A stretch of 64,000 nt of DNA from Flectonema sp. DT1601 (taxonomy: Eukaryota; Euglenozoa; Diplonemea; Diplonemida; Diplonemidae), in NCBI GenBank assembly GCA_964019425.1, contig OZ025837.1:305001-369000 (forward strand), written 5' to 3'. A model generated the notes under the pieces. That model did no database searches, was not told where the DNA came from, and saw only the letters and a program-made list of their open reading frames with translations. A program made the position numbers and the translations under genes. Below, one piece after another: positions 1 through 54,208 of the stretch (positions are counted from its first letter, which is position 1; each line of letters starts with the position of its first letter).

Positions 1-3000
1 ATGTGTCAACAAACGCGGCGACACGTCCAGAAGCGCGATCACCTCTGTAGGTACATTGAATAGCTCCTGCTGATACAGTTGGTGGTAGAGTTGTGTCAAT
101 CCACTGAGTAGCACCGTGTGCGAGGATACCACATCTGTAAACCTTTGGATCGTTAGCAAGACACGACTGACATGGGATGGTAATAACAAACACATCATAA
201 GCATTTGGTACAACAACAGCTCTGATTCCTTCACTCATCTGAATGTCAACAACGTTCGTCACAGAGACTGAAGTGTCAGTCACTGGAGTGAATGCCGCAC
301 TTGTAAACACGTTAGGAGACAAAGTGACTGAGATAGCAACTTCCTTAGTACCTGCCTGGAATGCACTTCCTCTAGTTGTTACGGATACTGATCCAGTTGA
401 TAGTGGAGTAGAGATTACCTGTGGGAAGGTCGCAAGCAAGAACTTAACCTTTTCAGTTGCAGCTGAAGTGCTGGCCGATGATCTCACAACGTAAGCAGGA
501 GCAGTGATGGCTCTGTTCTTCGCAATGAAGTTCAAGTAAAGCATTCTGAGTTCCTGGATGTTGGTAAACAATGTCTGCTGAGTTGCGTCTGTTGCCAATG
601 CTGTAGTAGCACTCTGAAGCTGATCAATACACTTAAAGTAAGTCGTCTCAAGTCTCCACTGAATGTGACGAGGAACAAGCTGGGTAGTAACAATTCTCTT
701 CATCAAAGCAACAGTGTTTGTGATGTCCTGTGCCTCAGTTGGAAGAGGTGACAGTAAAGTGCTGATGAGAGAGAAGGCTGTCCATTCGATCGCTCCAGGC
801 TGGTTGTTCTTCTCAGTCATTAAGGCATTGGCAAGGTTAATGTAAGTGTTCAAGTATGGGTGAACAGCAAGTGTTGCTACCATTCTACTTTGAAGACCTG
901 GTCCTCCGGTAAGAGCTCCAAGACCAGCCAAGAGCTGATCAAGTCCAGTGTTTCTTCCGACAATGGCTTGGAAGCCAGTTGTTGCTGAGGCTGAGTCGCT
1001 TGGTGGCTGTAATACGATCACTCTGAATCCCTTTCCAACAAATCCAGTTGTTCTGTCCTTGGCCTCAGCGTAGATAGTTACCTCCTGTGATGGGAATACA
1101 CCGACATTTGGAAGACCGTTAGCAGTCTCAAAGATGCTGTTTGATACGAATCCAGTAGAGATTGGAACAACATTCTGAGTCTGTGGCTGTTCAGTGTAGA
1201 AACTGTAATCTAACTCTGCTCCAGCTGATGCAGTAGCCAAGGCGGTGATGCGAAGGTTTGACTCTTCTGCGGTCCATGCTCCGTTGTTGCACTGTTCGAA
1301 GCACTCAACAACAACACTTGAGACAACTGGTGGCAATTCTACTCTGAAGGTGTACTCCGGACTGCAAGCACCACTGTTTGGTGGGATAATAGCACAGACA
1401 CGGTATGTGTATGTCTTACCTGCCTCTAACGCGTTTGGAACAAATGAAATAGCGCGGTCATTCAATCTTGTCGACACCATGGCAGCGACAGGTGTAAATC
1501 CTGTTGGTGCAGTGAATTCCCAAGTCCAGATGTCGTTGTTGTTTTGTTGTTCCAAGATGGAAACTTCAGCACGGAGAGTAATGGCGTTCTGTGGGTCATA
1601 GAAGGCTTGTGGTTCAAGAACTGTTACGGTTGGCTTTGGGTAGTCAGCAGCGTACAAGTTGAACTGATTAACAATCTGAGTCTGAGTCATGTAAGATGGT
1701 CTAATGATCAACTCATCAACAGTTCCTGGAGCAGCTGATAGAGATCCTCCCAAAGAGTTCTGACCAGAGTACACACGTCCGAGATGGAATCCACTTTCAG
1801 CACCTCCAATGTATCCAAGGATATCGTTAGAGTGGTACTTCAATCCATCAGTCTGGCAGTAGGTGTCTACGCAGATAGTCATTTCTGGAACCTCACCACG
1901 TCTTCCGGTTCTGAATGATCCAACAATGTAGTACCACTCATTTCCTTCAATGATCTTAGTGGTCATGGTTACTGACGTCCACAACAAGTTTGGACCGTTG
2001 GCAACGTGAAGTGCTGCGTAGAAGTTTCCGTCCTGCGCCAAACCAACGGTACCTCCTGGAGCAGGTGATGCAGAGTCTGTAATCTCCAACCAGTATCCAA
2101 ATCCGTATTCTCCTCCAGTCAAAGAGTTTGGTTCTGGGAAGTGGAATCTTCCTCCAATAGAACAATGCTTACCTGTCAAAGTGTATGTACCAGTTACCTG
2201 TTTTTTTTTTTTTTTTTTTTTTTTTGTTAAATTTCTTATATTCTACTCAACTACTAAAAAATTGTGATATAACTTTAAAAAAAAAAAAAAAAAAAAAAAT
2301 CACATACATCTGAGCACTGAGTCAAATCTGGGATGTTGACCCACGCACCGATGGTTACTTCAGCAAATCCAAAGTCAGCGCTGTCTGCGAAGAAGACAGA
2401 GTCAGTAGCCAACCTAACACCAGTGTTTGATGAGGCGTATGGACCGAATCTTGATTGAACGATGTCGAGTGATGCCGATGAATGAGTCTGTATTTGTTTT
2501 GTTTTGTTTTTTTGTCTCTAAAAAAAAAGAAGAATAATAACCCACCCCAATTACTCCAGCTAAATGACATACCAAACTTCCAATGGCACCAGCGCCAGCG
2601 CGTTCAAAGTTGTTGACGTAGGCAACAGGTGTGTTAGACACATCGTTACGGGCAGGGAAGTCAGAGAAGTGGTAAACGTAGTACTGAGTGTCTGGTTCAA
2701 CCTGTGACTGGATGTTAACGTTGCAGTTAGTGCAATCCGAACGAACGTCGTTTACGAAGACAGCGACCTCAACACTGTAACTGGCGGTCGATGATGCAGG
2801 TGGCTGCTGCCATTCAAAGTCACCAGTGCACTGAATTAAGTCTCCAGTGACTGATGTTACTCTGCAGTCAACATTTCCGACAACAACTCTGACGTTACCA
2901 ACAACTGCTGGAGGGAACTTACCGGTGATTCTCAATGGCTGTCCTCCCTTCCATGACAGAGATGTTGGCTGAAGTGCTGCTACTCTTGGCTTTACAGCAG

Positions 3001-6000
3001 CCTTCTCAAAGAAGTCAATCATCTCTTGCTGAGTCCATGCAGAGCTACAGAAGATCGAGTGGTCGATATCTCCAGTGAAACGCTGTCCAGATGATGGGCC
3101 ACATGGTCCTCCAATAGACATTCCGTAGTTTCCAATAACTGGGTTGGCGTTATCGTTAGTTGGTACGTCTACGGCCCTTGTCAACTGACCTGTTGCTACA
3201 GAAGTAGATTCCTGGCAAACGTTGTTAACACAGATGGTCAATCTACCTGCGGCATCGTAAGCAGCAGCGATCATCTGCCAAGCACCAGCAGTAAGTCTTT
3301 GGGTGCTTCGTAGGGTAGCAGTTCCAGCAGTCACAGATGGAACATATGTTGCTGGTACGACTCCCTGCAGACATGGTCCACTTGTAGTTCCGACGATGTA
3401 GTTTGTGTCTCCCTGGATCGAGAATCTTCTTGGGCACTCAACGTAGTTTCCTTCAAGAGCCAAGCTCACGGTGTCAGCAGGTCCGTTTACGAGAAGTGGA
3501 ACAGCAAGTCTTGCACCTGCTACGCGAGTCTGACAGTTCTCATTGATCTCCCATGAAGGTGATCCTCCAGTTCCGATAGTAGCCGACAGTGAGCAGGTAC
3601 CTCCATTTGGTTGAACGGCTCCAATTTCAATGGTCAAGTGAGTAATAGCTTCACATTCACCATCAGATGATTGACAAGGAGTAATTGTGTAAGTGAATAC
3701 TGTTGATCCTCCAGCCATTGTTGATGAAACAAAGGCAAGCTGATGGTTCATCTGTGACTGTACAAGAGTTGAAGTAGTGGCTCCACAGGCTGAAGCAGCA
3801 ATGCAAGGAGCTCCAGCAGGTGCTGAGGTTGCGGCAGTCTCACGTTCAATCTTGATCTGGAAACCTTCTCCAGCCTGGTCAGCAATGCAAACCATAGGAG
3901 CGTTTTCTAACAGAGCAGATGGATCGTCCATCTTTACCCAAGTAGCAACTGTAATACTTTCCTCATAGAACACATCACTTGTGGATGCAACACCCTGTCC
4001 AGCGTTAAGGTGAACAGCCTTGCTAATTGCGTTCGGTTCAAATGCAAACTTGAAGTCACTCGACAAGTATGAAACAGGGTTTCCTAAAGTAGCACTTAGA
4101 ATTGGAGATGACTCTAATGCTGGAAGCAGATGACCGTTGAAGTTGTAATTATGGCATTGTGAAGCAACGTTACAGTTAGGGTTAGCTGGAGTACATTGTT
4201 CAACGTCACAGATATCACCAGTCCATCCATCCTGACATCTACAGTAGGTAGTTGGTGGAGTTACTCTTTCAAGAGAGCGGACGCATACTCCGTTTCCACT
4301 GCAAGGGAGTCCCTCGGCATTGATTCCATTACAGCGAGCGTCACATGCATCACCAACCCATCCTAGTTCACAAGTACAGATACCAGATCCTCTGTTTCCA
4401 TCATTACATGTACCATGACCATCACATACTCCTCCTGCTGTTGTACTTGGGCATGACATACATTGGTCTCCGAATGTTCCTGGTGGACAGATGCATTCTC
4501 CAGTTCCTGTGGCTCCATCGTCACAAACTCCTCCGTTCTGAGTGCAGGAAGCTCTGCATGGAGTGCAAGAAGGTCCGAAGTGACCAGCAAGACACCAACT
4601 ACACAACTCACCACTCCATGGTGATGTACATCTACAAGTGTCAGTTTCAGATGAGCAAACTCCGTGATCACTGCAAACACCCAAATCCGGCATTGAACGA
4701 GGTTTGATTCTCACCAAGACATTAACAGTAAGCGTCAGTCCGAAGGAATCGGTCAATAGAACTGTGACTGGGAAGTCCTGATTGGCAGGTGACAATCTGA
4801 AGTTTCTGAGAGATCTCAAGTACATCTTCTGGTTTCTAATAACAAATCTATCTCCATTCAAGCTGGTAACTCTCGCAGTGACAACATCTCTTCGGTTGTC
4901 ATCGATGACGTTCTCAAATGTGAAGAGAGCCTCTCTTCTCATGTAAGTATCAATTGGCCAGGTGATCTCCTTCGTGGATACGAAGTCAAGTCCTGGGGAT
5001 CTTGGAGCAACTGGAGAGCTCGCCTGAATAAATGTAACCTTTCCAGTGCAAACCTCGGCACCTGCACGCCAGATAGTGTACGTGTGAACATCACGGAATT
5101 GTGTGTTAGTACCTCCTGTTCTTGTGTAGGTAAAGCTACCGTCAGCGTTAAGAATGAGTGTTCCTCTGGCTGTTGATGTGGTGCATGTAGCAGAGGCACA
5201 TGCAGTTACTCTACCAGCCTCTGTAGCGAAGTCGTTGTACAGAACTCCATTGGCAACTCCGAAGGTGACGGATGCGTCCTTAGCGAGGTTGATTCCAAAG
5301 TTATCATCAATCGAACACGTGTTAGTCTTGCTTCCAACAACAATGTTCTCAATCAAGTAAGAGTCAGACTTAGCGATCATTACAGCAACAGGTAGTCTAG
5401 CTTGTCCACCGTTAGCTCTCTTCAATGAGTCTGATGGGGCTGTCAATTCAGTTCCTTCAACACTGGCAGTGATGGTTGTGTCAGTTCTTGTCAATCTAAA
5501 GACCATCTTCTTACCAATAACAATAGGAACATTTACTACTGATGAAATAGCAGCAGTAACTCCGTTGGTTACCTTCACAATCGACAAGTCTCCGTTGTTA
5601 CTCCACTGGACCATTGTGGTTTCAGACATCTGTCCGAATACAGATGCGATTGGTCTGGTGTGACCAAATGCGATTCCTACCATGGCTCCCTCCAACAAGG
5701 CCTTAGTGACGGTAACAGTCGCGTGCATAACAGTTCTCTCAGCGAATCTTGCTTCAGAGATGAGGTACGACTTCGAGATCGATGCCTGTTGTTGCCAAGC
5801 GTTCTTTCCGTTAGTGCTGAACGCCCATGATCCACTGGAGCTTAGAGTTGTTGCAGTTGTCCAGAGACGAAGATCCTGAACCTCCATAACTGGGAGTACA
5901 GTTCCTCCACTTGATACGAAGTTGGCTGTTGCGGCCCTCGAACAAATAGCTGGGTATGAGTTAGCACATGACTGTGAAACCAAAACTCTTCCTTCAGTGG

Positions 6001-9000
6001 TGTGAATTACTACAGCGCAAGTGTTTCCAGCTACCGGTTGACCAGTAGCCCAGTTAGAGACAACGTTAACTCCATTCAACCATGTCCACTCTGTAGTTCT
6101 CTGAAGACCAACCCAGAGAGGTACTTGAGTTACCGTGTTTGCAACATTCATCCACATGGCTGGAGTGTCCGCGGAAACTAAGTCACCTCCAGAGTTCATG
6201 CAAGCCTGTCTGGCTGCGCTAAATGATGTCGCAGTTGTTGTGACGGCCAAACACGTGGTTCCATATCTCGCCCAACCTGACGGACAAACGTAGTCAGACT
6301 CAACGTCAACATTGCAGCTTCCCTGACAGGCGTCACCAGTGTAACCAGTGTTGCAGACACAAGCACCGTTAGTACATGTACCGTGGTGGTTGCATACCTT
6401 GCCATTGAATAATGGGCATCTGTCACTGCAGTCAAGTCCACTGAAGCGGTCAAGGCACTCACATGTTCCATCGCTGGTACACTTTCCATTTCCACTGCAA
6501 ACCTGGCGATCTCCAGATCCTGGGCAGACTCCTCCACAAGTTGGTCCCCAGTGGGCTCCGTCACACTCATCGCAGTCCTTTCCTCCAAACGGTGAGCTGC
6601 ACTCGCAGTTTCCGTCATCGTTACAGACTCCGTGTCCTCCGCAAACCTGTCCGTTTGCAACTGGACACTGAATGTCACACTCTGCTCCCTTCCATCCATT
6701 GTCACATCTGCATGAACAAGTGCTCTGAGCGTTTGCAACACAAGTACCGTGTTCTTTGCAAGTATCGCTGCAGCAGCAGTCGCAGGAGGCTCCAAAGCAT
6801 TCAGTTGGGCATGTTGTGCAGGTAGCAGCGTTGTTTGACCAGGCGCAAGTTCCTCCATTACAAACGTTACCATTGGTAGCTGGACATGCGACACAGTCTG
6901 GTCCAACGAAGCCAGGAGCGCACTGGTTACATCTGTCACCAGTCCATCCAGTAGTACACTCACATGAGCAGAATGGATCAGATGTTGTTAGTGTTGCTGT
7001 TCCCTTTGCGTTACAGTACTGGGCGTCTGTACATCTGTCTACGTTGCATGCACCAGTTCCAGTTCCGTGTGGCCACCAAGCGCCGAAGCAAGTGCAGTCA
7101 CATTCTCCATCAGAGTTGATAGTAAAGGTTCCGCGACCGTTACAGCACTGTGAGCAGGTTGGGTAGCCTGTGAATCCAACAGCGCATGTATTACATTGGG
7201 CACCTCCAAATGGAGTTTCGCACTGCGAACATGTTTCACCGCTCCACTGGGTGGCAGGGTCGCAAGTGCAACTGCACTGGTCATTTGCTACAGCCACTGC
7301 TGTTGCGTGACCTGAGCAATGAGTTGTCAGGCTGCACTGAGTGCACACAGGGAATGAAACACGGTTCGCTGCACATGTTGCACAGCCAGTAGCAAACTTA
7401 TCTTCACAAACAGAGCATGAGGAACCCTTGTACTGTCCGCTACATGCGCACTCACATTGACCGTTTCTAACAGATGCAACACCGTTTCCGTTACAGCTCG
7501 CAGCATCAGTGCAGGTACAGTCAGGTGCGTTGTTCATACCGTTAGCACAAGTAGTGCAGGTAGCATCTAAGTTAGTGTGTAGGCATGTTGAACAAGCAGA
7601 TGATGGGTTCCAGAAACCGTTACATGTGCAAACACATCTGTCTCCAGCCTGGGCATCACGTACCAATACAACACTTCGGGCATTAGCAGTGCTAGTACAG
7701 TCTCCTGCTGGGGTACATGTCGATGAGCAGTCCGCTCCAAAGTGGCCAGTAGCACATTCATCGCAGTTGGCTCCTCCGTATTGTGGAGGGCAAGTTCCAC
7801 AGCGTGGTCCACTCCAGTTGGTTACTGTGCAAGCACACTGGCAGTTCTGTCCGTTCAATGTTGCTGTTCCACGAGATCTGCAGAACTCAGCGTTACATGC
7901 TCCGTTACAAAGAGGTAGAGCACCTCCGTTTGCGCATGCGTCACAAGTGTTCTGAGTGTAGATCGCAGGGCATGAGCTGCAGTCGTTACTCTCCCAGTTG
8001 CTGTTGCAGTCGCATACACACTGAGTGTGATCAGCATTGCTTGTAATAGTTCTCGCTCTGTCAGGACTGGTGCAGTGCGAGTCAACTGAGCAAGCAACAC
8101 AGTCACCACCAACCCAAACGAAGCCCTCTGCGCACTGAGAACAGTCAGAGTCCTGGTCGTATCTTGGTGGGCAGTAGTTACAGTCATCATTCTCCCACTT
8201 GTTTCTGCAGACGCACTGGCAGCCATCTGATCCTCTGGCGAATACGGTTCTTGCGTGACCTGAGCAATCAGTCTGCTGGGAGCAAACACGGCAACTTGGA
8301 GGCACTCTGTCAGTCTGACAGACATCACATCCAGAACCAGTGAATCCAGGAGTGCAGACAGAACAGTCAGCTCCTGTCCACTTTCCACTGCAAGTACACT
8401 TGCACTCTCCGTTCTCCTTCTCAACCTTACCGGCGTTACCGCTGCAGTGAGTAGGTACGGAGCATTCTTCGCAATTTGGTGCAGTTCCGATGTGAGTGGC
8501 GGCACAGTTGGTGCAGGTGTTGTCGAACTGACTGTTGCATACGCTGCAGTCAGAACCTTCCCAGTTGTTGTTACATGCACAGGTGCATTTGTTGGAGTTA
8601 GCATCAGCGCTTGCTACACCGTTGCCACTGCAGGTAACCGTGGCGCAGTTAGTGCAAACTGGGAACAAAATGTGGTTGGTGGTGCAACGGTCACATTCAG
8701 TACCAGCGTATGGCGTTGGGCAAGTGTTGCAGTCTGAACCGGTCCAGTATCCTGAGCATGAGCATGTACAAGATGTACCATCTGATGTGACTGTTCCGTG
8801 ATCATTACAAAGAGTTGCAGCATCACACAGAGTGCAAACAGAGTTGATCATTGCGTATCCAGCTGAGGCATCACATGCGGTGCATGTGGCACCAGTGTAA
8901 CCAGTGACACACGCGTTGCAGTTAGGTGCTGCGTAGTTAGGCATACATGTACATGTGCATCCAGTGTTGTCTCCATTGCTAGCTACGGAATCAGCATTTC

Positions 9001-12000
9001 CATTGCAGTGTTCATCAACTTTACATTGTTGGCATACAGCAGATGATGCTGCTTTGTAGTAACCAGTAGCACAGTCAACGCATGCTGGCTGGACGTACGC
9101 AGATGAGCACTGTGCGCAAGTTGGGCCTGACCACATTCCAGCGCAAGTACAGACGCAGTTACGGTGGAATGAATCAGATTTAACGGAAGCAGCGTGAGCA
9201 TTACAGTGAGTACCATCCTGACATTGGATGCACGATAATCCATCCTGTGACATGATGTAGTCAGGAGCACATTCTGAACAAGCAGATCCAACGTATCCAG
9301 TTGCACAAACACATTGACACTTCATGTTATCAGCTGTTGGTGAAGCTACACCGTGTCCATTACAGTGAGCGTTAGCTGTGCATTCCTGACAGGCAGGGTA
9401 AAGGATTCTTCCTGCTGCGCAGCTTGCGCAATCAGCACCAAACTTTGTAGTATCGCAAGTCTGACATGAAGCACCTGTCCATTGGTTGTTACAGTTACAC
9501 TGACATGTTGCTCCATCTGAATTAATTGGAGTAGCAGATCTACTCATGCAGGCAACTACATTTGAACACATGACACAGTTAGGGTAACCAGTGTATCCAC
9601 TAGCACAAGTGTCACAGTTAGTGCCTCCGAATTCAGCTGGGCAGGTCTGGCAGCTGGATCCCGTCCATGGAGCAGTACAGTCAGTGCAGACGCACGTGTT
9701 CTGATCCTTTGCGACTGATACCGCTCTGTTGCTGCAGTGCTGCTGAAGAGTACACTCAGGAACACAGGCTGGGAATTCTCCTGTTAGACCAGTTGCGCAC
9801 ATAGTGCAGGTAGCCTGGTCATAAAGGTCTGGACAAGTTCCACAGTTATCACCGAACCATGGAGGCTTACATCTGCAGACACAACTTCCCTGACTGTCAG
9901 GAACAATTGCTGCCAGAGCGCGAATTGGACCTCCACAGTTTGAAAGTTGGCATGCAAAACAGTTAGGGAAGTTGTAGTGACCTGACTTGCAACGAGTACA
10001 AGTAGAGTCGTACAGTTCTGAGTTGCACTGATCACAGGAGTCACCAGTCCATTGAGAGTTTGAATCACAATTACAGCTGCAGGCTGTAGAGTCAGCGTTT
10101 GATCCCTGAGGGGTTCCGTGTCCATTGCAGTCAGTGACAGTACACAGTCTGCACTCAGCACCATCCTTTACGTAGTTCTCATCACAGGCAGTGCACTGTC
10201 CAGCTTGAAGGTTTCTGAAACCTGTTGGGCATACAGAGCATCTTGATCCTTCCCAGTTCTGGACACATGCGCACTCACATTGGTCACCAACCTGAGTGGC
10301 GACACCGTTACCAGAGCAGTGAACAGAGTCACGGCAGAGAGTACAGGTTGGGTAGTTAATTCTACCGGCAACACAGCTGGAGCATGAACCGGCTTCGAAC
10401 TTCGCATCAGAACAGGTCTCACAGTGAACTCCAACCCACTGATCAGCGCATCCCTTGCAGACACATTGACCGTTCTCTGAATCAACATCGGCGGCTCTTC
10501 CATTGCAGTGGTCTGCTACGGTGCATCTTTCACAGAATGTAACCTCTCCGTTGTCGATTGATGTTCTTACCCATCCAGGTAAGCATTGTCCGCAGTTAGA
10601 TCCAGTGCTTCCATCCTTGCATGTACACTTGCACACTCCGTTCTCAGAGGTGACGCCGCGGGCTGACCTATCACCGCTGCAGTGGATGACTAAGTTGCAC
10701 TGTGTGCAAACTGGAGGAGAACCCGCGAAGCCAGTTGGACATTCGTCGCAGTTTTCACCGGCGTATGAAGGAGCACACTGTTCACACTTCAATCCAGTGT
10801 AACCAGTCTTGCAAGAGCACTGACAGGTGGTTCCATCCGACGCGATTGGAAGGTTAGTACCTGCCGCTGAACATGTCGATGTGGTGACACTGACACTTGC
10901 AATGCACTGAGTGCAGTCCCATCCATCAGCAGTTTGAACCTTAATCCAACCTGACTTACACTCACTGCACGCAGAACCAGAGTATGGATGAGGACAGATA
11001 GTACAGGCACTTCCAGTGAACTTCTCTCTGCAGACACAGTTGCAGGTGTCATCAGCAGTGCTAATGTCTCCCTGTTGAATGTTACAGAAGGTACCACAGT
11101 TGTAACAATCTGGGTAGACAGCGTTGTTGGCAGCACAGCTCTGGCAGCCTCCTTCGCGATCGAAGCGACCTTCGTCACAGAAGTCGCAGGCTGGGCCAGT
11201 CCACTGGGCGGTGTCACACAGACAGAGGCATGCGGTTGCGTCAGAATTTGGGGAAGCAACACCTCGGTTGTTGCAGTGTCTTGAACGTTCACAGAGAGTG
11301 CAAGCACCTTCGATTAGAGAGTAACCAGTGTCACAGGTAGCACATTCTGGTCCTGTGTAACCAGTATCACAAGTACACTTGCAGGAGTTTGCTGTTGCAG
11401 CTGGTCCAACAGTTCCGTGGTTGGAGCAAGCGCTTCCAATGGTTCCCAAATTCCACTGAGACAAAGCGGCTGGAATATCCTGAGTTGCAGTAGAGCATGG
11501 GATACAGCTTGGGTATGCAATCAGGTCTCCAGAACACTTTCCACAGTCATCAGTTTGACTGAACTTAGCAGGACATTCATCACATGCAGAAGAAGCAGTC
11601 CACTGGTTTCTACACTGACAAGTACATTGGTTAGTAGTAATGTCACTCGAAAAAAAGGTAGCCTTTCCATGGCAGTTGTCAGCGTTAGTGCATTGAGTAC
11701 ATGTAACAACTCCTCCCTCAGTTTGTGAAACCCATCCTGGAAGACATCCAGTGCATGCATCGTTAACAAGTCTGAATGGTGTAGCACATGTAGAGCAGGC
11801 ACAAGTTGTTCTGTCAGAGGTTGGTGTACCCATATCACAAGTGCATGCAGTGCATGTTTCAGCAGTAGAGTCATAAGAGTATCCAATCATACATTCAGCA
11901 CAGTTAGTCGCTGGGTCAAATCCACTCTGACAAGTGTCACAGTTAGTTGTTGTAGTTGACCATTTGTTCTCACAAGTGCATGAACAAGTAGTTCCATCAG

Positions 12001-27000: not shown

Positions 27001-30000
27001 CTGCAGCTCCGTGTGAGTTACAGTGAGCAGCGCTCTCGCAAAGCTCGCAGACCAGGACACCATTTACTGATCTCTTAACGTATCCAGCCTTGCATCCCTT
27101 ACAGTTGCTTCCAGCGAATGGATGGATACACTCCTGGCAGAAGGTTGAGACATCAAAGTTGGAGTTCTTGCAACGGCATTCGCACGTTGTTGGAGATGCT
27201 GCAGAAACGAAGTGAGCAGTTCCCTGACAGTGAGTAGCGATGCTGCACTGAGTACATCCCTGTGCATTGTAGTTAATCCATCCAGGAAGACATGTGTTGC
27301 AAGTTGGTCCAGTTACTCCCTTAGTGGCATCACACTCACATTGGCATGATTTCTTATCGGTGCTGACACTGGCTGCTCCAAGACTGTTGCAGTTGTTGGC
27401 GTCGGTACAGGCGTCACAGTTTGGCTCAACAGTGTTAGCAGCACATCCATCACAAGAAGAATCATATCTTGGATCGCACACGCTACAAGTAGTACCAGTC
27501 CAACGTCCTTCACATGTGCACTGGCATGTGTTCGAAACTACGATACTTACGTAACCATTTCCAGTGCAATCAGCAGGTGTGCATGGGCGACACTGAACTG
27601 GTGGACCAGATCCTGCAACTGGTACGTATCCCGCGGCACACTCTAAGCAGTTGGAAGCACCAGTGTATCCTGCTGGGCAGTTCTGACACTTGTCACCAGT
27701 CCAGTGGTTCCTACAGGTGCAGTCACATCCAACGTTACCAGCTGAGTTAGTAACGTCCGAAGCGTGATCAGTGCTGGTGCAGTGGTTGGCAATAGTACAG
27801 GTGTCACAGTCTGGAAGGAATGTGTTGGCAGGGCAGTCAACACAGCCGTTGGCGTTGAGGAGAGGATCGCAAGTATCACAAGTTGCTCCAGTACGCTTAC
27901 CAAGACACTCACAAATACAGGTGCTTTGGTCAGATGATGGGTACGCACTGCTAGCCTGGCTTGATCCTCCACAGACCTGAGCGTTACATTGAACACACAA
28001 GTTGGCACTGTCTCTGTAGTAACCTTCTTTGCACTTCTCACATGTGGATCCGGTGTAAGGATGGAAGCAAGTGCACTCACACATTGTTTTAGTGGAGTCG
28101 ACGTTGACGAGACCAACTCCATTGCAGTTGGTATTGGCATCACACACTGTTGTGCAAGTTGGGAAGTTGATTGCCAATGGGTTGGCACAAGCTTGTGGTG
28201 TGCAGTCTGGGAATGCTGTTCCATCAGCACAAGTGTTGCAGTTACCCTGTCCATCATTGGTGTATACAGGTGGGCATGTCTCACATCTATCTCCAGTCCA
28301 GCCTGGTTTACAGTTGCACTGACAGGTGTACAAACCAGACAACTGAACATTAACAGTGTTCGCTGCCACGCAGTGTGTTGCAGCATCACAGGCTTCACAG
28401 ACTGGGTCGGAACCAACAGTTGCTACGAATCTGAAGTTGTCAGCACAAGGCTCACAAGTGGCATCGTAATTCTGCTTCTCACATTGGCACTGAGTCTGAC
28501 CAGTTGGTACTGTGTAGTACTTCTTGCATTCACAAGTGCAGGTGGTAGCCGAGCCTCCCGCAGAGGTTGCCCTGGTTGAAACCGCTGAGCCTCCGCAGAA
28601 TGAAACGCCACATGGAAGACATTCGTTGTTGGAGGAGTAGTAGTTGACTTCACATTGGCTGCAAGTCGCTCCCGTGTATCCTGGAAGACAGTCACATCCA
28701 CAGTCGTATTGAGAAGTAGCAGAGTTCCAGATTCTAGCAGGAGGGGATCCGTTACATTGAGCAGCAGTGCATTCTGTGCAGCCTCCACTGCCATTAGGGG
28801 AAAATCCAGCACGGCATTCATTACAGTCGGCTCCCTGGAATGGTGGGAGGCAAATGTTGCAGTTGGTACCAGTCCAAGGAGCAGTACATTGACACACACA
28901 CTCGTCATTAACAATACTGCTTGTACCGTGTGCTGAGCAATCAGTGTTGGTGCATTCAAGGCAGTTTGGGTATTGATATCTTCCTGACACACAGGCATTG
29001 CATGCTGCTACGTATCTAGTGGTGTCACATTCGTTGCAACGGGCTCCTGAGAATTGGGTGGCAGGATCACAGCTGCATCCACACGTAGTTGGAGTAGCAA
29101 CGAAGGCACTGATTGTTCCTGGAGCGGTACAGTCTGCTTGAATTGTACATGGCTCACAGTTTCCATTGCTTCTCATAACATTTCCGAATTCACACTGATT
29201 ACAGAAGGTACCAGTGTAGCCAGCTTCACAGACACACCTACAACTTTCAGCGTCGCGAACGACTCTGTTACCGTGACCATTACAGAGTGCCTGTTCGTCA
29301 GCGCAGTTCTTACAAACCGGGTAGTTAACTCTAGTTCCCTCACATCTACCACAGTCACCAGCAGTAGTTGAGTCGAACTGAGCATTACAAGATGCGCAGT
29401 TTTCACCGAACCAACTGTTTCTGCATTTGCATCCACAAGTGCCGTCCTGGTTCATAACAATGTCAGTAGCCTGGTTGGAGCAGTGAGTAGAAACAGTGCA
29501 TTCAACGCATGCTCCGTTTTGAAGTTCGTAACCAGCCTTGCAGGTGTTACAAGTGGCACCAACCTGTACCCACGGATCTGGGCAGACATCACACTTGGCT
29601 CCTTGCCATTGGTTGTTGCAGGTACATGGGCAAGTTGCGAATGGATCATTTGCGACGTTCAAAACACCGTGACCAGTACAGTGAACTGCTGCATCACATG
29701 CTCCACATCTTGGGTATGGGTGTGTTGAAGTTGCTGCTGCGCAAGTATCACAGTTCTGAACAGCGGATGGGTCATATGGTGCTGGACACACAGAGCATGT
29801 TGGAGGAGCGTAACCATTAATACATGAACAGGTGCAGGTTTGTCTGTCACTGCTAACTAGGGTACCTCTGTTGTTACAATCGATAGAAGGATCACACTGA
29901 ACACAGTCCTCGTTAACACGTTTCCATCCGACCTTACACTCAGAGCAGTCAGTAGCCGGATCGAATCCGTCCTTGCAGGTAGCACATGAAGGAAGAAGCC

Positions 30001-33000
30001 ATTTGTTTGCGCATGTACAGACACAGTTACTTCCATCACTGGTAAAAACAGTCGCGTGATTAGAGCAGTCAGCTTGGTTGCACTGTTCACACGTTGGTGG
30101 GGTGTGACGGCCGATTTGGCAAACCTGGCAGGCGCTTTGTTCAACCTTGTCAGGGCAAGTTCCACAGTCATCACCTTCCCAATGAGTGTTGCACTGACAA
30201 ACACATTTAGTGGAGTCAGCGTTTGAATTTACATCAGTTGCACGAGTGGCACAGTTGGATGAACTTCCACAACAGTGAACAGGAACACTGCATTGGACAC
30301 AGGTGTTTCCTTCTTTGACGTATCCTGGGGCACACTGAGTGCATGTCTTGGCAACCGAATCGTACAACCAACCTTCAGTGCACTGCTCACAAGATGCACC
30401 CATCCAAGGGAAGTTACATGTGCAGTCACATGAAGTAGAGTCAAAGCTACCCTGAACACCACTAGCGTGATCAGAGCAGTGTGTTACAACACTACACAAC
30501 TCACATGTTTGTGTGGCAGCTACAAGGTATCTCTCAGAGTCACACTTGCTACAGTCAGGTCCAGTGAATCCAGTGTTACACACACAGTGACATGCGGTGT
30601 TTAGTGCGTTGGAAAAGACAGCTGAGGCATGTCCATTACAGTGAGTAGTACTGAGGCACTGTGTACATTCTGGGTGGTTAATGTAACCATTCAAGCATTT
30701 ATCACAGTTTGGTCCTGTGAATGGGGATGGGCAAGTCTTGCACTTTGGAAGTGCGAAGTTGGTGTCACAGTCGCAAGTGCAGGTTTCACCATTGCCTGAA
30801 ACAGTTGGGACACCGTTATCACTACAGAAAGCCTTGTCACAGATTCCACATTCTGGGTAGTTGAAGTATCCATTAGCACAAGTGTCGCATGTTGCCTGGT
30901 TGTACTTGGCCTCAGGGCAGATGTCACACTTGTCTCCAGTCCATTGACCCTTGCAATCACAGTCACAAACATCACCAACAACCATTGCGCCTCTGGTACC
31001 AGCTGTTGAGCAGTAAGTTCCAACAGTACATGGAGAGCATGCTGGGCCACTGAAACCGGCAGCACAGTCAATACAGTTGTCCTGGTCGTAGTTACTTGGA
31101 CACTGGTTGCATGCTAGTCCGAACCAGTTAGTTCCAGAGTCGCAGGTACATCTACAGGTGTCTCCATCAATAACAGATGATCCGTGATCATTACACTGAG
31201 ATCTACCACATGTTACACAAATACCATCCTGTCTGAGGTATCCAACAGCACATGACTCACAGCTGCTTCCAGTGTATCCAGTTTGACATTCACACTTGCA
31301 GATGTCAGCACTGCCAGACTGAGCAACAACTGGGCTTCCGTAAGCCCCACAATCCTTGTTACACAGATCACATGTTGGGTATCCGTAGTGTTGTGGTGCA
31401 CAGGCATTGCAGGCTCCGTTGTACTTCGCTTCACAGTTGGTGCATCCAATTCCAGTCCACATTCCCTTTGCAGGGTCACACGTGCAAACGCAGTTCTCAC
31501 GAGTCTCATCGGAAGTTACGGAAGAAGATCTGGTTGAACAGTGAGTAGCATCAGTACACTGAGTACACCCAGTTACGGTACCCTGAGCATTAACAATGCT
31601 GATGTAACCTGCTAGGCAAGTGTTACAGTCTGGTGAAGAGCTGAAAGGAGAATTGCAAGTCAGACAACTGTCAGCTGTAGACCATTGGCTGCGGCAGTTG
31701 CAGGTGCAATCAGCTCCATTTCTAGTAACAGAATCAGCATTTCCATGGCAGTTGGACTGAACAGTACAATCACCACATGTAGTTCCAGTACAGGTAGTGC
31801 AGGTGCTGTCAAAGTTAGGAGGGCACTGGTTGCAACGAGGTCCAAACCAGTTTCCTTGGCAAGGCTCACATGAGCAGGTCACTCCATCAGAAACTGGAGT
31901 TCCTCTGTTGTTGCAAACAGCAGCAGTGCACTCATCACAGTTTGGTCCAAAGTGCGTAGAGATGCATCCAGTGCAAGTCTGCTGACCGTTGACAATCTTA
32001 ATCGCGTATGGACTCGTGCATGAAGTACAGTCAGGTAGAGCAAAGTTTCCATTACATGAAGTACAGGTGCACTGACCGTTTGCAACTCCAGTAGTTCCAC
32101 GTCCGTTGCAGGCATTCGCACAGCTGTCACAGTTAGGACCAGCGTGACCAGCAATACACTCATCGCAGTTAGTTCCAGTAAATGGATCTGGGCACTGAAG
32201 ACAGTCTGGTAGCTGGAAGTTGTTGATGCAGGTACAAGTACAAACATCGTTAACAACTGCAATATCTGAGGCGTGTACTGAATTAGTGCAATGGGTTGCC
32301 ACAGAGCACAGAACACAGTTCGGGTATCCAGCGTATCCACTAGCACAGGAGTTGCATAGTGTTCCAGTGAACGGTGGGAGGCAGTTACATCTGTCAGCAG
32401 CGTTCATGCGGTCATTCTTGCAGACGCAAGTGCAGCCAGAGTGGTCTGGAAGACTGTTGGAATCAATAGCCATTTGTGCCTGGCACTGCTCTGCAGCTGT
32501 ACACATTGAGCATCTGAATGGAGAAGTACCAGAGATGTAGTAATCAGTATCACAAGCATTACATGTCGCACCAACATATCCAGGATTACATTGACACGTA
32601 CAGGCTCCACCAGAACTAGTTGCCTGTGATGCTTCACCAACACAGTGTGTTGCTACACTACATGGAACACAGGTATTTCCTGATGGGGTGTAGTTGTCAG
32701 CACAGGTAGCACATCCTGTTGGGTTTGCGAAAGCTGGGCAGGTACCACAGTCAGATTCAGTTGTGTAGAATCCCCTGCAGTTGCAAACACAGTTACCCGC
32801 GTCCAATGTGAAGCCAACAGCGTTACCATTACATGGGCACCGAAGAGTGCACTCCTGACAGTCTCCGTTTGCTGCAGTCGTCGCGCAAGTGTATCCGGCG
32901 GCACTGTCGCATTGTGTACATCTGTCACCACTGAAACCAGGTTTGCAAGTACATCTGCAAGTAGTAGAGTCAACCAGTGTAGCAGCTGTTGATGCAGCAC

Positions 33001-36000
33001 CGTTACAGTAGTTTGAATCACAAGGAACGCAGTCAGTCAATACACCTCCAACCATAACATTTACAAGTCCTGCAATACAAGTCTTGCATTCAGTCTGTTC
33101 GTATTTTTCTGGACAGGTTTGGCATCTGTCTCCTGTCCACTTATCTTTACAAGGACCACACTGACAGTTAATACCATTAGCATCACCCTGCGGTGTTACT
33201 GAGTTTACGCAAAACAAACTACAGTCAGTGCTACAGTCAGGTCCAGTGTAAGGAGCATTACAGGTACACTTACAGGTAGTTGAGCTACAAGATCCACGGC
33301 TACCACAGGTGTTCTGTGGGAAACCTGGGCAGCTACCACCACAGTTGGCGTTACAGGTTCCGGCTGGGCAGTCACATCTGCAAACACCGTTCGCGTCGTA
33401 CGCGTGTGCAGCTCCGTTCAGACAAACTGGGCAAGTGTTGCAAGTGTCAGGGACTGGTACTACGGCTGCGCAAGCCTTGCAAGTTGGTCCGAAAAACTGC
33501 GATGAAGAACAAGCACACTGAAGTACCATTCTACCTGTTCCATCGTCAACACATTCGGCATCAGCTCCACCAACACAAGTTGCTTGTGGATCAACGCAGT
33601 CACATGGGCAAGAGCATGCTGGTCCTCCGTAACCGGCATCGCAAATGCATTGTCCCATTCCGTTAGCGCTTTCATGGAATGTACCACGACCACTGCAACA
33701 GGTTCCTACACCTGCTGCTGCAGAGCTAATCTGAACACCGTTTCTGTTGAACATTCTACCGTTTGGAAGTGTTGCTTGGTTGCTACCAGTTTCACATGAT
33801 GCCTGTGGAGCTTCTGGACAACACAAGTCGTTGTCAATAATAGAAATTGGACGAGTTCTGGCAACACAAGTTGGGTATGGGTAAGTCATAGTAGGCAACA
33901 CTGGAACGAATGTAACAACAATAGTCTTGTCACCATCGATAATAGTGTTGTCTCCAGCAGTGAATGTCGCACTTACACCGTCCTGTTCAGCAGCAGCGAG
34001 ACTACCGAAAGCAATAGTAGGTGGTGGTCTGGTAATTTCATTAGCAGCAGTGTTAGTCCAATCAGCAGTAACTGAGGTCGCAACATCAAGTCCACCAATG
34101 ATCTTGAAGTTCAGAATGAAATTTCCTCCTTCAGTAGCAGCTGATGCTCCAGTCACCTGCAAGTCAACAACTCTAATGTTGAACTCCATCGAATAGATGA
34201 TTCCATTCTGAGTGAGAGTAGCAGCAGCTTGGTATGTTCCTGGGGCAGAATCACCCGCCAGAGATAAGTAAGCAGTGTTTTGTGATTCTCTGTTACCACT
34301 GTTGATTGAAGTCTGAACAATGTTAGTAAGAGTACCAGTACTGGTGTGAATAGTCCACAACTGCTGACCAGCAGGAGCTTCAAGTGACTCTCCACTGACA
34401 GTGTGAACTGGCGTTGAAACTGCAAGAACACCACCAGCAAAGTCGTTCAAGTTCGATGCCCTCCTCCAGACAATTGAGAATGCATGTCTAGCACATGGAG
34501 CAACAACATGAGTGTTAGTATCCTGACTTGTAGAGGTGATAACAGCAGTCAATGGCTGTAAGTTAGGGTCCTCAAGAATAGCAATGTGCCTGTTAGTTTG
34601 ACGTCTGAATGCCTCTCCACTGCATCCAACTGTTCCACTTGCGCGGAAGTCTAACAGGTATTGACCGAAGACTCCTGTTGGAGGGATGAAGTTACCAGTG
34701 TAGGTACCGTCACCGTTTAAGTCAGTTAGGGAAATGTGAGTTTGTTTTCCTAATGGACCAGTTGCTGTAACCATAAAGCTAATATCCTGAAGTGGTTGTA
34801 AGGTGTCAATAGGAACAACCTGAGCACTGATTGGAAGAGCACGGCCACTGAAACCAGAGGTTGGTATGCTGACCTTAATAATCATTTTTGTTGATCCAGT
34901 GACTCTGGTAGTGACATCAACAGTAGTAACGTCACCAGTCACAGCAATGTTTGCTCCTTCTAATCTCAACTCATAACGTGCGCTGTTACTGAATGGAAGA
35001 GTGTATCCCTTCTCTCTTGCAACCGTGCTAAAAGTGATATCACCAACTGTTTGTTCTCCAACAACAACACCGGAACTGGTGACAAGCTGAAGTGTAACCT
35101 GATCAACGTTACCTGAAGTCGATACTGTGATGTCAACTGGGTTAGCTCTGCTGTCAACAACGATTGGAATAACAGCCGACTGACCATTTCTTAAAGTGTT
35201 AGTTTGAGTCCAAAGTGCTGTAAGACCAGTAATCTCATCAAACAACTCAGCGTAGATGTTCTGTAAATGAGCAGCAGTAGGAGCGTACTTGTAAACACCA
35301 CCAGTAATACTCGCCATCAAAGTTAATTTCTGGTTTGCTTCACCTTCGGCACAGTCCGGTGACAAACAAATAGTCGAAACGTGATGCTGATGGAACTGCA
35401 TGAACACAGCCCAAGCACGGTAAGTATCAATAGGGACGCTGTCACGTCCGTCGGTAAGAACAACAATTTGTCTTGGAATATTCTTTGGGGCACCAGTTCT
35501 AAGGGCGATGATACCTCCGTAAATACCCATAAGCACGTTGGTACCTCCTCCATTACGGTTCTTAATCATACCAGCGAGAGCAGATCTGTCTGACGTTAGC
35601 TGTACGGTGAATACAACTTCAAAGGCGTGCTTGAAATCAACAACGGAAAACCAAGTACCGTCAGGAAGCTTTGCAAGAACATCCTTTGCGGCTGCAATTC
35701 TGCTTGCAGTTGGATCGGTGGTTGCCATTGATCCAGACTGGTCAATGACAACAACAACTTCCATTCCACTTCCATCCCAACGAACAGCTTCAGGTCTAAC
35801 GTGGCTAGTTACAACTTGTGGTGACGCACAAGTGCTTCCACCCAATACTACTTCAACTCTAACACCGCAGGTTCCTCCAGCGACGTTTAAGAGAGCACCA
35901 GCCGATAGATAATCACAACCAGTTGTGTAAACTGGAGGTCTAATCAAAAGTCTGTGCATTCCAACTAATTCATCGTACTCAACGAGTGCTGATAATGGAG

Positions 36001-38893
36001 TGCTTCCAATGTAAGCTCTGAAAGCATTCTCAGGAAAACGAAGAGATCTACTTCTGTCGACTCCATTGTCAGGGTTGTAAGCAGCATCAGCCACGTAAGC
36101 CTGAACGTTAACATCAATAGTTGGAAGTGGTGATGATGATGGTCCAACATTAGCAGTCAAGTTATATCCGTATACTCCAGCTGGTGGTGGGATGTCTTGT
36201 TGAGGGTTCTGTACGGAAATGATAACGTTACCCTTTGTTGCTACAATTGGAGTCCATGTTTGAGTGTATACTCTGTTGTTTTCAGTGATCGTGTAAACAG
36301 CAGTAATAGAAGCAGCGTATGTTCCAGCCCTTGTTGATGTTGCGAGGTTAGCAGTGTTTCCAGTAGTAGTAGCAGTAGACTGACCAGAGATAGTAGTTAA
36401 TGATGAAAGAGTTACTACTTCTGTTACTGCAGTATCAATCATAGTAGCAGTGATACTTGAAACAGTAACAGTAAATGGACCAGTGTTTGAAAGAGTGACT
36501 GTCAATAATGATCCAGAAACACTAGCGCAGAGATCAAGACTGATTTCTAAGTCACAAGGTTCACACATTGAGCATGCTGCTGGCTTTACCACTGCAACCT
36601 TTTCAATTCTTGCACCAAATGAGACAGTTCCCGGTACTAATGTACATGGTACATCAGAGGCCTCACGCCTTCCGTGGGAACATGTTCCAGATACGAAGGT
36701 CCAGATAACACAATCTCTTGCGTTGCAACAAGTAGCAGCACATTCTTCTTTTGTGACAGCTGACATGACGGTGAAGGATGATGATGGGCAGATGTATGAA
36801 TCGAGATCACCAACAACATTACATCTACTGTTTGGGTCCCTAACACGAGAATCTAAAGCCATTCTACCAACAGCTCCGTTAAGTGAAGTGGAACTACTGA
36901 CATCCAAGTACAATGACAGACCTGGGAGGGTGCTTCTGTCTGATGCTCCCATTCCAAATCGAGCAGCAGTTGATTCCGATAATGAGTGTACGGTACCATC
37001 AAAGGTTCCGTAACCAGTCAGCTTACCAGTTACCAACTTGTACAACTTCCAGTCACTAGCCTTGACGTAACCTCCGTTGGTGTCGTAGCAGTTGCTGTTC
37101 ATTTCTAAGATCGAACGTGCAGCAGGATCATTAGTTGGAGCGTACAGAAGAACATCAATTGCGTATCCAGATGAGTAAGTCTTCACACCATTAACAGTTG
37201 TTACTACGTGAAGGTTTCCAGTAAGTCTGGCATTCTCGGTACCTCTCTTAAAGCTGAGGCAGTATGGGTCCTTACAGTCAAGGTTTACAATAGTGTTTCC
37301 CAATGTGAGTCTGAGTGCTGGAGAATCACCTCCGTCAAAACACGATGAAGCAGCAGCACCAGTTACTTCGTAATCCTCAACTAAGTCAGCGTCAGTGCAG
37401 GAGTAACCAGATTCGATACCACAGTTAGCATTACAACCATCATTGCTGTCAGTGTTTCCGTCGTCACAAGTTTCTCCAGATTCTGTGCGGCAGTTACCAC
37501 AGATAGGTTCGTCCCACATCCATACAACACGTCCTCCGAAAGAAGCAGTCGCGCTTTGGTCTCCTCCTCTAGCGGCGTTTCCACTGTAGAATAAGTCAGC
37601 TCCTGATGGTACTTTCCATCCCAAGTTTGAAGATGTGAAAGCAGAGTATCCAGAACAGTAACCTACACCACCTGATCCTACGGTGTTAACAGACGCGGCA
37701 GTTCCTGAACCACAACTACAGTACTGAAGTGAGCCAGGGGTGCATCCAACAACAGTCATTTCAGCATCACAGTCAGCATTACATCTAGCAGTAGTCCATC
37801 CGTTGGTTGTTCCGAGTGCAGTTACTACGAAACCATTTGTTGGACAAGCTGTTTGAGTTCCACCATGTTCTCCATGAGCAGTTGGGGTACCACCTCCACC
37901 TCCAGCAGCAATAATAACAGGCAATGCATCAATCAAGACACGGGTTTGCTTACCACCCTGACCGGCAGCTGAAGAACCCCCAACTTCCATAGTAATAACA
38001 GATCCTGGGACTACTGACATTGTTACTTCACAGAATGATCCGTGACCTCCGTGTCCAACAATCTTAATGTAACGATGACCAGCAGCAAGACAACCAGCTT
38101 CATTGTTGTTCAACGCCGTTACTGGAACAGTCTGAGGAACACCACCATCCCAGGTAGCTCTTTGGTAACAGTTTCCGAGGTTGGAGTGCTGAGCACCTCC
38201 TCCAGCTCCCCAGACTTTGAAGTTTATGCTTCTGGTGTTTGCAGGTACAGTCCAAGTAAGGTCGGCACTGGTGGCACGAGTTTTAGTGAAATCTTGGTAC
38301 TTGATATTAGTAGAAGGATTATCAATGGCAGTTGATGTTCCCTCAATAGTAAACAAAATGTTATCCAGACAGTACTCTGCATCGTTTGTTGGATCGACAT
38401 CAATGCGACCGATTTTCCAACCGGACGGAACAAGTTCGAACAAACCTGTTGATGATGATGTGGTTTGTGTAGTCCTTCGATTACCTTCTGTATCAAAGAA
38501 CGCAACAATCCAGTTAACATTTGGTGAGAAAACGTCAAGCGCTGCGGCAGATACAGGCTTAACAAATTCAACTCTAAAGTTAGTCATTCCCTCACATCTA
38601 CATGACGGTCCGTTGGTCAGTCCAGAGCCATCGCTCCTTCTGTTGTAGGTCGGCATGATGGCAGCATGACCGACCAACCAAGGGTCCTGAGTTGCCACTT
38701 TCATAGGAGTGACACTGTTCACAGTAAACCACTGTGCGTAGGTGTTACCAACTTCCTGGCAGGTGTCAGTTGGTAGCTCCTTAATTTCAGAAACCTCTCC
38801 CATCGTAACTTGATATTGGTACTTCGTTCTGGGCTGTTCCGCCTGTACCAAAGCTAGCAGCCCAACCATCGCAAGCTTAGTGTAGCTTGACAT
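1..38893 (-). CDS. Giant multidomain EGF-repeat surface protein (3' end beyond the left edge)
   Basis: Three exons read on the minus strand: 38893-2573, 2487-2308 and 2197-1 (continuing outside), at least 12,899 residues, all joined in phase 0. Residues 1-18 form a signal peptide. Approximate order after it: glycine-rich block (220-470); DUF4215-like Cys repeat (461-510, motif ETCDDGNTDSNDGC); PAN-like Cys segment (700-740); von Willebrand A domain (1040-1215, MIDAS DQSGS); Calx-beta-like domain (1580-1690); EGF/laminin-type modules (1690-10860); C-type lectin (10865-10985); VCBS-like segment (11190-11290, GTLILNADGSFTYT); cadherin-like stretch; four EGF modules; LamG-like; IPT/TIG (about 11965-12035); second LamG-like domain across the exon junctions; REJ-like stretch; GPS-like Cys region close to position 1. 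Family knowledge suggests an extracellular adhesin or receptor; that role, and a membrane anchor outside the window, are inferred. The start is the first ATG of the frame and opens directly into the signal peptide. Confidence 0.9.
2198..2307 (-). other. Intron 2 of the giant gene (110 nt, GT-AG) with complementary homopolymer ends
   Basis: On the minus strand the donor reads GTATGTGA and the acceptor AACAG. A run of 23 U lies just inside the donor and a run of 25 A just before the acceptor. The junction is phase 0, and the frame downstream is open for all 2,197 nt to the window edge. Confidence 0.88.
2488..2572 (-). other. Intron 1 of the giant gene (85 nt, GT-AG)
   Basis: On the minus strand the donor reads GTATGT and the acceptor AAATACAG. 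Splicing removes an open but low-complexity tail and an in-frame TAG stop (2416-2414), and joins exon 1 in phase 0 to a 60-codon exon that continues the LamG-like fold. The intron is U-rich in its middle and A-rich before the acceptor. Confidence 0.88.
22860..23070 (-). other. Atypical Cys-rich insert C in the EGF array
   Basis: About 70 residues (CGNFNKLVCNVFAGFFLVED, then a segment with CHHNTLPFQLPLCC) break the EGF spacing. It contains cysteines but no WTG or HCxGHA motif. It does not obviously match modules A and B. Confidence 0.55.
24925..25245 (-). other. Non-EGF inserted module B in the EGF array
   Basis: About 105 residues starting near SCDWQNREISFQF, with GIWLSPTRFAV and VFIAEFSSTQIF, sit between EGF modules. 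The pattern matches module A, so the two look like paralogous copies of one unnamed beta-rich domain inserted at two places in the array. Confidence 0.7.
26280..26625 (-). other. Non-EGF inserted module A in the EGF array
   Basis: About 115 residues interrupt the cysteine rhythm, beginning near TCNWFNMVVV and containing VWISGSRVAFLL and CWIAFDL. It is flanked by ordinary EGF modules. It shares a spaced pattern (C-[ND]-W, then [IV]-W-[IL]-S-x-x-R-x-A, then I-A and a late Cys) with module B about 1.4 kb downstream in the gene. I do not recognise the fold; it is predicted beta-rich. Confidence 0.7.
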
Positions 38894-39289
38894 GTTGCTC
38901 TCTTTTAAAATTGAGAGTTGCTTTTTTTCTCCCTTGTCTTTTTTTTTTTTTTTTTTTTTTTTTTCAAAAAGGTTTTAAGAAATTAAAAAAAAAAAAAAGG
39001 GAAAAAGGAAGTCGATATATAAAAATAAAAGACCTGATGGAGGGGGGGGAATTAAAATTAATTAAAAAAAAAAACAAAAAACTACTAAAACACAAAACTA
39101 ATGAGTAAGCTACTCATAGATGGAAAATTACCATTCATTTTTTTTTTTTTTTTTTTTGACATCTCTGTTCAAGGTGAAAATACAAATAAATAAAAACCGT
39201 CGTCAAAAAAAAGATTTACACTTGCTAAATAGTAAAAAGGTTAGGTAGAAAAAAAAAAAAGAAAAAAAAAAAAAAAGGGAAAAAATTTC
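38894..39289. other. Homopolymer-rich spacer upstream of the giant gene
   Basis: A 396-bp gap holding the presumed promoter and 5' leader of the giant gene and the 3' end of the pseudokinase transcript. A run of 26 T (38939-38964, a poly-A on the coding strand) lies 46 bp before the giant gene's ATG. There are further A and T runs near 38980, 39139 and 39250-39278. No credible ORF or RNA gene was seen. Confidence 0.7.
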
Positions 39290-47506: not shown

Positions 47507-47750
47507 TATTATTTTTTTTTTTTTTTTTTTAAATTCAGTTGTTAGGGGTTCTGTTTAGGGGAATGAAAAGACTACGGCTTATTAAGTGCAATATATATAA
47601 ATGTAGTTCGACACAAGTGATGCTTTCAGCGGTTGTTAATATTTTTTTTTGATTGTGTTAGAAATTTAAACGAATAGCTGGTTCAAGTGGTTATGAGTTT
47701 TTCTTTTTAAAAACACGATTTAGTTCTCGCCCAAGTTTCCACCTCTTTTT

Positions 47751-49988: not shown

Positions 49989-50545
49989 CCCAACCTTTAT
50001 TTTTTATTTTTTTTTATTTTTTTTTTTAAAAAAATGAAAAGTGATCACACGATAGAAACAAAACTAAAAAACAGTATAGTCAGGAATCAAGTAACCATCC
50101 GAACTTGGACAAATTCAAATGATATTAAATAGAACAACAGGAATAAAACAAAAGGTGGTCGTACTCGACGTTTCTCTTGTCGTTTATTTTTAACTTATCC
50201 CTCACGTGAAATCACTAATTTAGTAGTCGGTGTACCCGAAGTAGTTCTTCCTTCTTCTCGTTATTTTATGAAAACTGAAATAATAAAATATTTTGATACG
50301 TTCCGTGTAATTGTCTAAAGTACAAGTTGTCAGCAATCACCTTACTAAGTGATTGTCAACAAGAAGTAATCACAACAAGAGGCATTGTGTACAGGAGGTC
50401 CTGTCACATCTCAAACAGGAGTCGAATACTCCGATTGTTTAAATAAAATAACAATTCAATCATGTGATTCTCATGTCAGACGTTGTTGGAATCGTATCAA
50501 AATAACTCATCTGACTAACCTTTGATGGAGTTGTGAGACTTCACT
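49989..50545. other. Spacer between protease and repeat ORF, unit 1
   Basis: 557 bp carrying the protease's 5' region and the 3' region of the repeat gene. A small inverted repeat CAATCAC/GTGATTG (50334-50340 and 50349-50355, 8-nt loop) is visible. No ORF was found. The same spacer recurs in unit 2 at 57821-58379. Confidence 0.65.
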
Positions 50546-53905: not shown

Positions 53906-54009
53906 CGTACGGCGCCCGAGAAGGAGTAGGAATCCTGTTCAGAGACTTCACTTCAGTTAAGCAAATGAACGTTAGCTTGTAACTCAACAGAGATAGACAC
54001 CTCATAAGA

Positions 54010-54192: not shown

Positions 54193-54208
54193 TTATTGAA
54201 TTGCACAA

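Follow-up and report, generated by a model that had tools for sequence, protein, structure and literature searches.

A 64,000-nucleotide stretch of the genome of the diplonemid Flectonema sp. DT1601 (contig OZ025837.1, positions 305,001 to 369,000; hereafter the window) carries on its minus strand a gene, at the locus labelled C58, for a protein with an added-up length of ~13,150 residues, in which N-glycosylation sequons (N-x-S/T) are nearly absent and a long array of cysteine-rich modules has kept its order relative to a diverged paralogue, C62. Comparison of the two copies indicates one real protein-coding gene under purifying selection along its whole length, and both the module order and the near-absence of sequons appear, from the sequences, to be kept by selection. 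Giant proteins as such are already known; the near-absence of sequons in the window protein, in C62 and in a longer cousin, C18, is new here. All loci are from one genome assembly (89.5 Mb, 92 contigs).

The gene occupies a stop-to-stop open frame of 12,186 codons (2417-38974, minus strand). Starting at the ATG (38893), 12,107 codons follow without a stop up to the first splice donor; such a run has a probability of ~10^-297 if bases are assumed to be independent, and the other five frames over exon 1 contain 9 to 105 stops per bin (12 full 1,000-codon bins). Two further exons bring the part up to the window edge to 12,899 residues, exactly the minimum length given in an initial annotation made from the window sequence, the giant-protein observation of which is hereby confirmed. 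The gene model, in window coordinates, is as follows.

38840..38893, minus strand: putative signal peptide, MSSYTKLAMVGLLALVQA, a hydrophobic N-terminus judged by eye
2573..38893, minus strand: exon 1, 12,107 codons, start ATG at 38893
2488..2572, minus strand: intron 1, GTATGT...ACAG, 85 nt, position conserved in the C62 paralogue
2308..2487, minus strand: exon 2, 60 codons
2198..2307, minus strand: intron 2, GTATGT...ACAG, 110 nt, position conserved in the C62 paralogue
2..2197, minus strand: exon 3, part inside the window, 732 codons; the membrane span and tail lie past the window edge

The complete exon 3 was recovered by protein search as entry P0121, the first 725 comparable residues of which equal those of the window exon 3, with 255 more beyond the window. 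Its C-terminus has one membrane span, NWAVMGPVIAVVCVAFLLCIVGVVYCSKK, followed by 54 residues; the final few of these seem to come from reading on through the next donor. By analogy with the C62 paralogue, for which a four-exon model read from the open sequence gives 13,129 residues and 1.39 MDa, the window gene probably has four exons. A single membrane span was found in each copy, and in the C62 model the ten most hydrophobic 19-residue segments all fall on it.

The C62 paralogue (C62:621146-660.7k; exon 1 of 12,085 residues) is the only collinear one among the siblings of the window gene that were found. In a global alignment of the two exon 1 products, 12,028 residues are aligned with an identity of 63.4%; the 75 gaps are each shorter than 10 residues, and 1,487 of 1,488 cysteines are retained. 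Synonymous sites are saturated (proportion of synonymous differences, pS, 0.69; synonymous divergence, dS, ~1.9; nonsynonymous divergence, dN, 0.28), and dN/dS lies between 0.06 and 0.33 across all 20 full 600-codon segments. For 136 of the 137 module hits the same-rank partner is the best match in both directions, with a mean identity of 65% to the same-rank C62 module, compared with 44% to the best other module of the window protein. Because the gaps are all shorter than 10 residues and the modules pair by rank, no module gain or loss is seen since the C58/C62 split. In long proteins made of tandem modules, losses and gains of modules would be the expected course; their absence here despite synonymous saturation points to an unusually strong constraint on length or order. 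In contrast, 51 of the 242 unit hits in C18 have a twin that is at least 90% identical. Near-duplicate units are also seen, as judged by eye, in pieces of the related loci C12 and C44.

Given the C58/C62 conservation, the frame cannot be a random one, and an assembly artefact is strongly disfavoured. Collapse or expansion in the EGF region was raised in the initial annotation as a way in which the protein might prove unreal, but both the divergence of the modules and the diverged, collinear paralogue speak against it: Tandem Repeats Finder reports a single 42-base row within exon 1, and the most similar module pair in the array is 58% identical, too different for collapse. Several genes or a pseudogene were likewise rejected, as purifying selection and codon bias extend along the entire exon. 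Although a single assembly was examined, repeat collapse or expansion, or the reading of several genes as a single one, is thus barely credible given a second locus of nearly equal length with the same order and the same introns.

Codon usage was expressed as the codon adaptation index (CAI) relative to two tubulin gene pieces (380 and 402 codons). The CAI is 0.49 for both exon 1 and exon 3 of the window gene and is flat along exon 1 (0.42-0.54 in 25 consecutive 500-codon bins); the values are 0.44 and 0.34 for exons 1 and 3 of C62 and 0.30 for C18. Twenty other open reading frames (ORFs), including two tandem copies, were scored around C58 and C18: 19 have a CAI of 0.22-0.29, and the lone high value (0.43) belongs to a membrane-protein-like ORF. 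These values are indirect evidence, from a small tubulin reference set, that the window gene may be heavily translated; the locus is richer in G+C than its flank, which limits this reading.

The 12,899 residues of the window protein comprise 6.8% Asn and 19.4% Ser plus Thr, a composition that predicts 161 N-x-S/T sequons (150 for C62, 266 for C18). Shuffling inside 64-residue blocks with Cys fixed gives similar expectations, yet only 10 sequons are observed in the window protein versus 162.9±11.1 expected, with 14 versus 149.8 in C62 and 25 versus 265.1 in C18. The mirrored motif S/T-x-N (138, 135 and 248 in the window protein, C62 and C18, respectively) and N-x-x-S/T (172, 186 and 327) are near the composition prediction. 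A second control, in which residues were shuffled within each column of the unit alignment, leaves the same deficit inside the units: 1 sequon versus 57.5±5.7 in the window protein, 6 versus 62.2 in C62 and 11 versus 98.4 in C18. Under this control the mirrored motif occurs 37 times versus 41.9 and 63 times versus 62.8 in the window protein and C18, and is low in C62 (20 versus 32.3±4.7). The depletion involves the head (1 versus 19.1), the array (9 versus 121.7) and the C-terminal part of exon 1 (0 versus 13.5) of the window protein, and each of these parts is depleted in C62 and C18 too, which argues that head, array and C-terminal part enter the endoplasmic reticulum as one chain. Three matches to the STT3 family are present in the genome. 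Among the residual sequons, 15 of 49 are of the form N-W-S/T, which are poor glycosylation acceptors, and only two occupy a common alignment column in the window protein and C62.

The changes between the paralogues are coupled in the same sense. Overall, 817 of 1,425 Asn residues (57%) are kept, but only 17 of 97 (18%) where the partner has Ser or Thr at +2, compared with 49-59% where it is at -3, -2, -1, +1 or +3. Reciprocally, Ser or Thr is kept in 10 of 98 cases where the partner carries Asn at -2, compared with 60-67% at other offsets. This low retention in a sequon context indicates that selection against N-glycosylation continued after the C58/C62 duplication. A by-product of composition or of EGF spacing was rejected on the combined evidence of the block and column shuffles, the reversed motif, the other offsets and the paralogue-coupled changes.

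At least seven loci share the 64-residue unit (C58, C62, C18, C39, C73, C44 and C12). Of these, C58, C62 and C18 also have the head (E≤1e-5, eight candidates scored), and C58 and C62 have exon 3 (E≤0.001, three candidates scored); C18 is an open frame of 21,670 codons (C18:814606-879615). Sequon depletion was not seen as a general property of proteins in this genome: 27 ordinary ORFs (at least 330 codons; open frames rather than gene models, with 27-bp-repeat ORFs dropped) contain 125 sequons versus 107 expected. Two comparison pieces also lack the depletion: 1,045 residues from a different EGF protein have 13 versus 10.3, and 1,203 residues from a giant VWA protein have 7 versus 4.5; a neighbouring protease has 3 versus 7.1. 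In 667-833-residue pieces of the unit-sharing relatives, C44 (0 versus 6.9) and C73 (1 versus 9.8) are depleted, but C12 (5 versus 9.0) and C39 (5 versus 9.8) only weakly so, while a giant at C36, not shown to be related, has 12 versus 23.6 in 3,333 residues and 2 versus 8.0 in a second piece. The unevenness of C12 and C39, and a depletion by half or more in C36, argue against a clean family rule. Sequon loss can serve, in any genome, as a computable sign that a giant open frame is made, is secreted and needs to stay bare.

Pfam profile matches, graded by each model's own cut-off, give the domain order below (window coordinates).

37469..38296, minus strand: glycine-rich segment, weak Gly_rich_2 match, E 0.019, below cut-off
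37421..37510, minus strand: DUF4215-like Cys motif, E 8.6e-5, 23.2 bits against a cut-off of 27
36680..36778, minus strand: PAN-like, PAN_4, E 0.0016 and 3.9e-4 in two scans, below cut-off
35252..35758, minus strand: VWA domain, PF13519 3.4e-12, PF00092 1.3e-9
6617..33223, minus strand: EGF/laminin-EGF-like array, 134 unit hits, residues 1891-10759
5939..6229, minus strand: C-type lectin domain, PF00059, 3.8e-11
5126..5293, minus strand: cadherin-like/bacterial-Ig-like domain, Cadherin_4, 1.8e-4, 22.4 bits against 25.1
3023..3349, minus strand: LamG/concanavalin-like domain, PF13385, 9.7e-10
2825..2989, minus strand: IPT/TIG domain, PF01833, 9.5e-4, 19.6 bits against 20.9, just below cut-off
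1673-2101, minus strand: second LamG match, in exon 3, E 1.4e-4, 22.4 bits against 27.6, below cut-off

Several domains proposed in the initial annotation are borne out, namely VWA (47.4 bits, cut-off 27), the lectin (44.1 bits, cut-off 22.6) and the LamG domain of exon 1. The EGF array also stands, with nearer 134 unit hits, plus three further on, than the "about 145" originally counted, whereas the IPT domain, the second LamG (placed across exons 2 and 3) and the "VCBS-like" part (here Cadherin_4) are represented by weak, sub-threshold matches. The proposed Calx-beta and REJ-like domains find no support: there is no Pfam match to Calx-beta at E≤1 in residues 1430-1720, although these end in ISIIDND, a sequence resembling that family, and none to REJ, PLAT or PKD at E≤1 in the C-terminal part. 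The conserved paralogue, the codon bias, the sequon deficit and the membrane anchor were beyond the reach of that annotation. The VWA domain has DQSGS at the position of the DxSxS metal-site motif. In the lectin domain no canonical sugar-site motif was seen by eye, and sugar binding by it is therefore doubtful.

The array unit has ~64 residues and ~10 Cys. EGF_laminin exceeds its cut-off of 21 in two of the first 10 exon 1 chunks (24.1 and 21.7 bits); EGF_Teneurin (37.6 and 41.5 bits against 24.3, in the last two chunks) and EGF (25.2 bits against 21.5) match at or past the array end, and most array chunks contain no Pfam EGF-family model above cut-off. An AlphaFold2 model of two units has a predicted local distance difference test score (pLDDT) of 95, and netrin and laminin EGF (LE) chains are at the top of its Foldseek list and of the VIA-align list. 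At the C62 3' end and in P0121, an unreliable model (pLDDT 32.5) places helices, strands and then an alpha-beta segment before the membrane span, which may represent GAIN-like and SEA-like parts.

Together these observations are best read, with reasonable though not high confidence, as a membrane-anchored adhesin or tether built as a disulfide-locked, glycan-free rod of fixed length. The product, of ~13,150 residues and ~1.4 MDa, would be a secretory type I membrane protein that crosses the membrane once. Its signal peptide would be followed by a distal head (glycine-rich, PAN-like and VWA), an extended rod of 134 unit hits, then lectin, LamG, IPT-like and Ig-like domains close to the membrane, and finally the span with a short tail. 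With ~2.5-3.5 nm per LE module, as assumed here, the rod would be ~330-470 nm long and would keep the head, with its VWA domain, a set distance away from the cell. The head, lectin and LamG domains suggest a binding role, and the protein may thus act as an adhesive tether or surface fibre. We propose that N-glycans are kept off the rods because they would disturb rod folding or side-by-side packing.

In passages of PMC5562741, sequons are described as positively selected on exposed surfaces, almost eliminated at buried sites and rare at interfaces. Full packing of the surface would be expected to remove sequons along the ectodomain as a whole; simple disturbance of disulfide folding offers an alternative. 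A more specific and more tentative proposal is a glycan-excluded molecular ruler, in which N-glycosylation would be selected against because the whole ectodomain surface is an interface in a laterally packed, length-calibrated fibre. Such a ruler would explain why module number is frozen here while near-duplicate units occur in C18, C12 and C44. If true, the sequon avoidance would be among the strongest such signals in one protein, and the fibre would be a diplonemid surface structure without a name so far. The sequon result also makes of the vague label "giant surface protein" a testable question, whether the rod is glycan-free and bundled.

The rarity of sequons at interfaces (again as given in part of PMC5562741), their loss along the entire ectodomain and a codon bias that points to bulk production would also suit a secreted structural polymer of packed rods (coat, scale, flagellar hair or extrusome fibre), with the span serving only for delivery before proteolytic release. 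We regard this as possible but a good deal less probable than a membrane-anchored tether, as the span and tail are present in both copies, and the lectin fold and the VWA domain, whose metal-site motif is intact, fit a binding function. Cleavage of a polyprotein precursor into several working proteins, with no mature 13,000-residue molecule, seems unlikely: the possible GAIN-like or SEA-like region before the span in the unreliable model could point to processing, but the unit hits form a near-continuous run, no indel of 10 or more residues separates the paralogues, and no linker or cut site was noticed by eye, without a dedicated search.

Such size, considered rare in the initial annotation, is not unique within this genome. 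Two domain searches of the genome revealed at least 19 open frames of at least 10,000 codons, including that of the window, totalling 265,047 codons or 0.9% of the genome (a hand tally of frames, not gene models). Longer single frames occur at C36:557489 (26,714 codons, which as one exon would span 80 kb; the reading covered 10 kb) and C59:402241 (18,591 codons). Separate multi-VWA frames of 12,447-12,788 codons lie on C10 (four copies), C3 (three), C23 (three, one of 10,470 codons), C56 (two), C31 and C70, partly in tandem with a spacing of ~38.6-43.9 kb; this group is near the window gene in size, with no relation to its head at E≤1e-5.

The features of a diplonemid nuclear gene, namely a spliced leader, a unidirectional cluster and GT-AG introns, are all present. 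The genome contains 711 copies of a diplonemid spliced leader within three mismatches, compared with none for a reversed-pattern control, and many of the copies listed are in tandem arrays with a 610- or 623-bp period; large arrays lie at C16:1432443-1446807 (~623 bp) and C20:1248648-1291401 (~610 bp). The best outside matches of the neighbouring CEP104 gene are in EukProt transcriptomes, at 81% and 50% (Rhum_ record), with Euglena gracilis and Bodo saltans further down the list; we take the Rhum_ prefix to denote the diplonemid Rhynchopus humris and EG_ to denote E. gracilis. The open frames of at least 250 codons in the window share the minus strand, apart from two that lie antisense to the 27-bp repeats. 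Unidirectional gene arrays are described for Diplonema papillatum in passages of PMC10161547, and the GT-AG introns of the window fit the canonical type of Diplonemidae as given in part of PMC12621601, which also presents Paradiplonema papillatum as genetically tractable. The ~400 bases between the giant gene and the upstream kinase-like gene (38894-39297), with several long poly-T and poly-A runs, would suit trans-spliced neighbours. Farther upstream, 47001-55500 and 55001-64000 are tandem copies ~7.8 kb apart and ~98-99% identical, containing a subtilase gene (PF00082), an ORF of 27-bp repeats (GAPQPTVGY, repeated 53 and 70 times), which is open in both orientations, and a pair of BTB genes (Pfam on the first copy).

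Protein searches revealed no homologue outside this genome, and the literature searched contained no published account of the domain architecture, the frozen array or the sequon avoidance. Polycystin-1 and the REJ-GAIN receptors resemble the window protein in their C-type lectin and in the large ectodomain that precedes the membrane; polycystin-1, however, has eleven membrane spans. With one span per copy and no REJ, PLAT or PKD match in its C-terminal part, the window protein does not fit the polycystin-1/REJ family, nor, with no model match at E≤1 over residues 1430-1720, the Calx-beta proteins. Laminins, netrins, teneurins, tenascins and Notch, like the window protein, contain serial Cys-rich EGF-like modules, but LE proteins have eight Cys per module where the window unit has ~10 in ~64 residues, and the 134 unit hits stand in a domain order not seen elsewhere in the searches made. 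With titin and other giants the window protein shares a size of ~10^4 residues and many repeated modules; in contrast to them, it is a secretory, disulfide-rich protein of a protist, encoded in nearly one exon.
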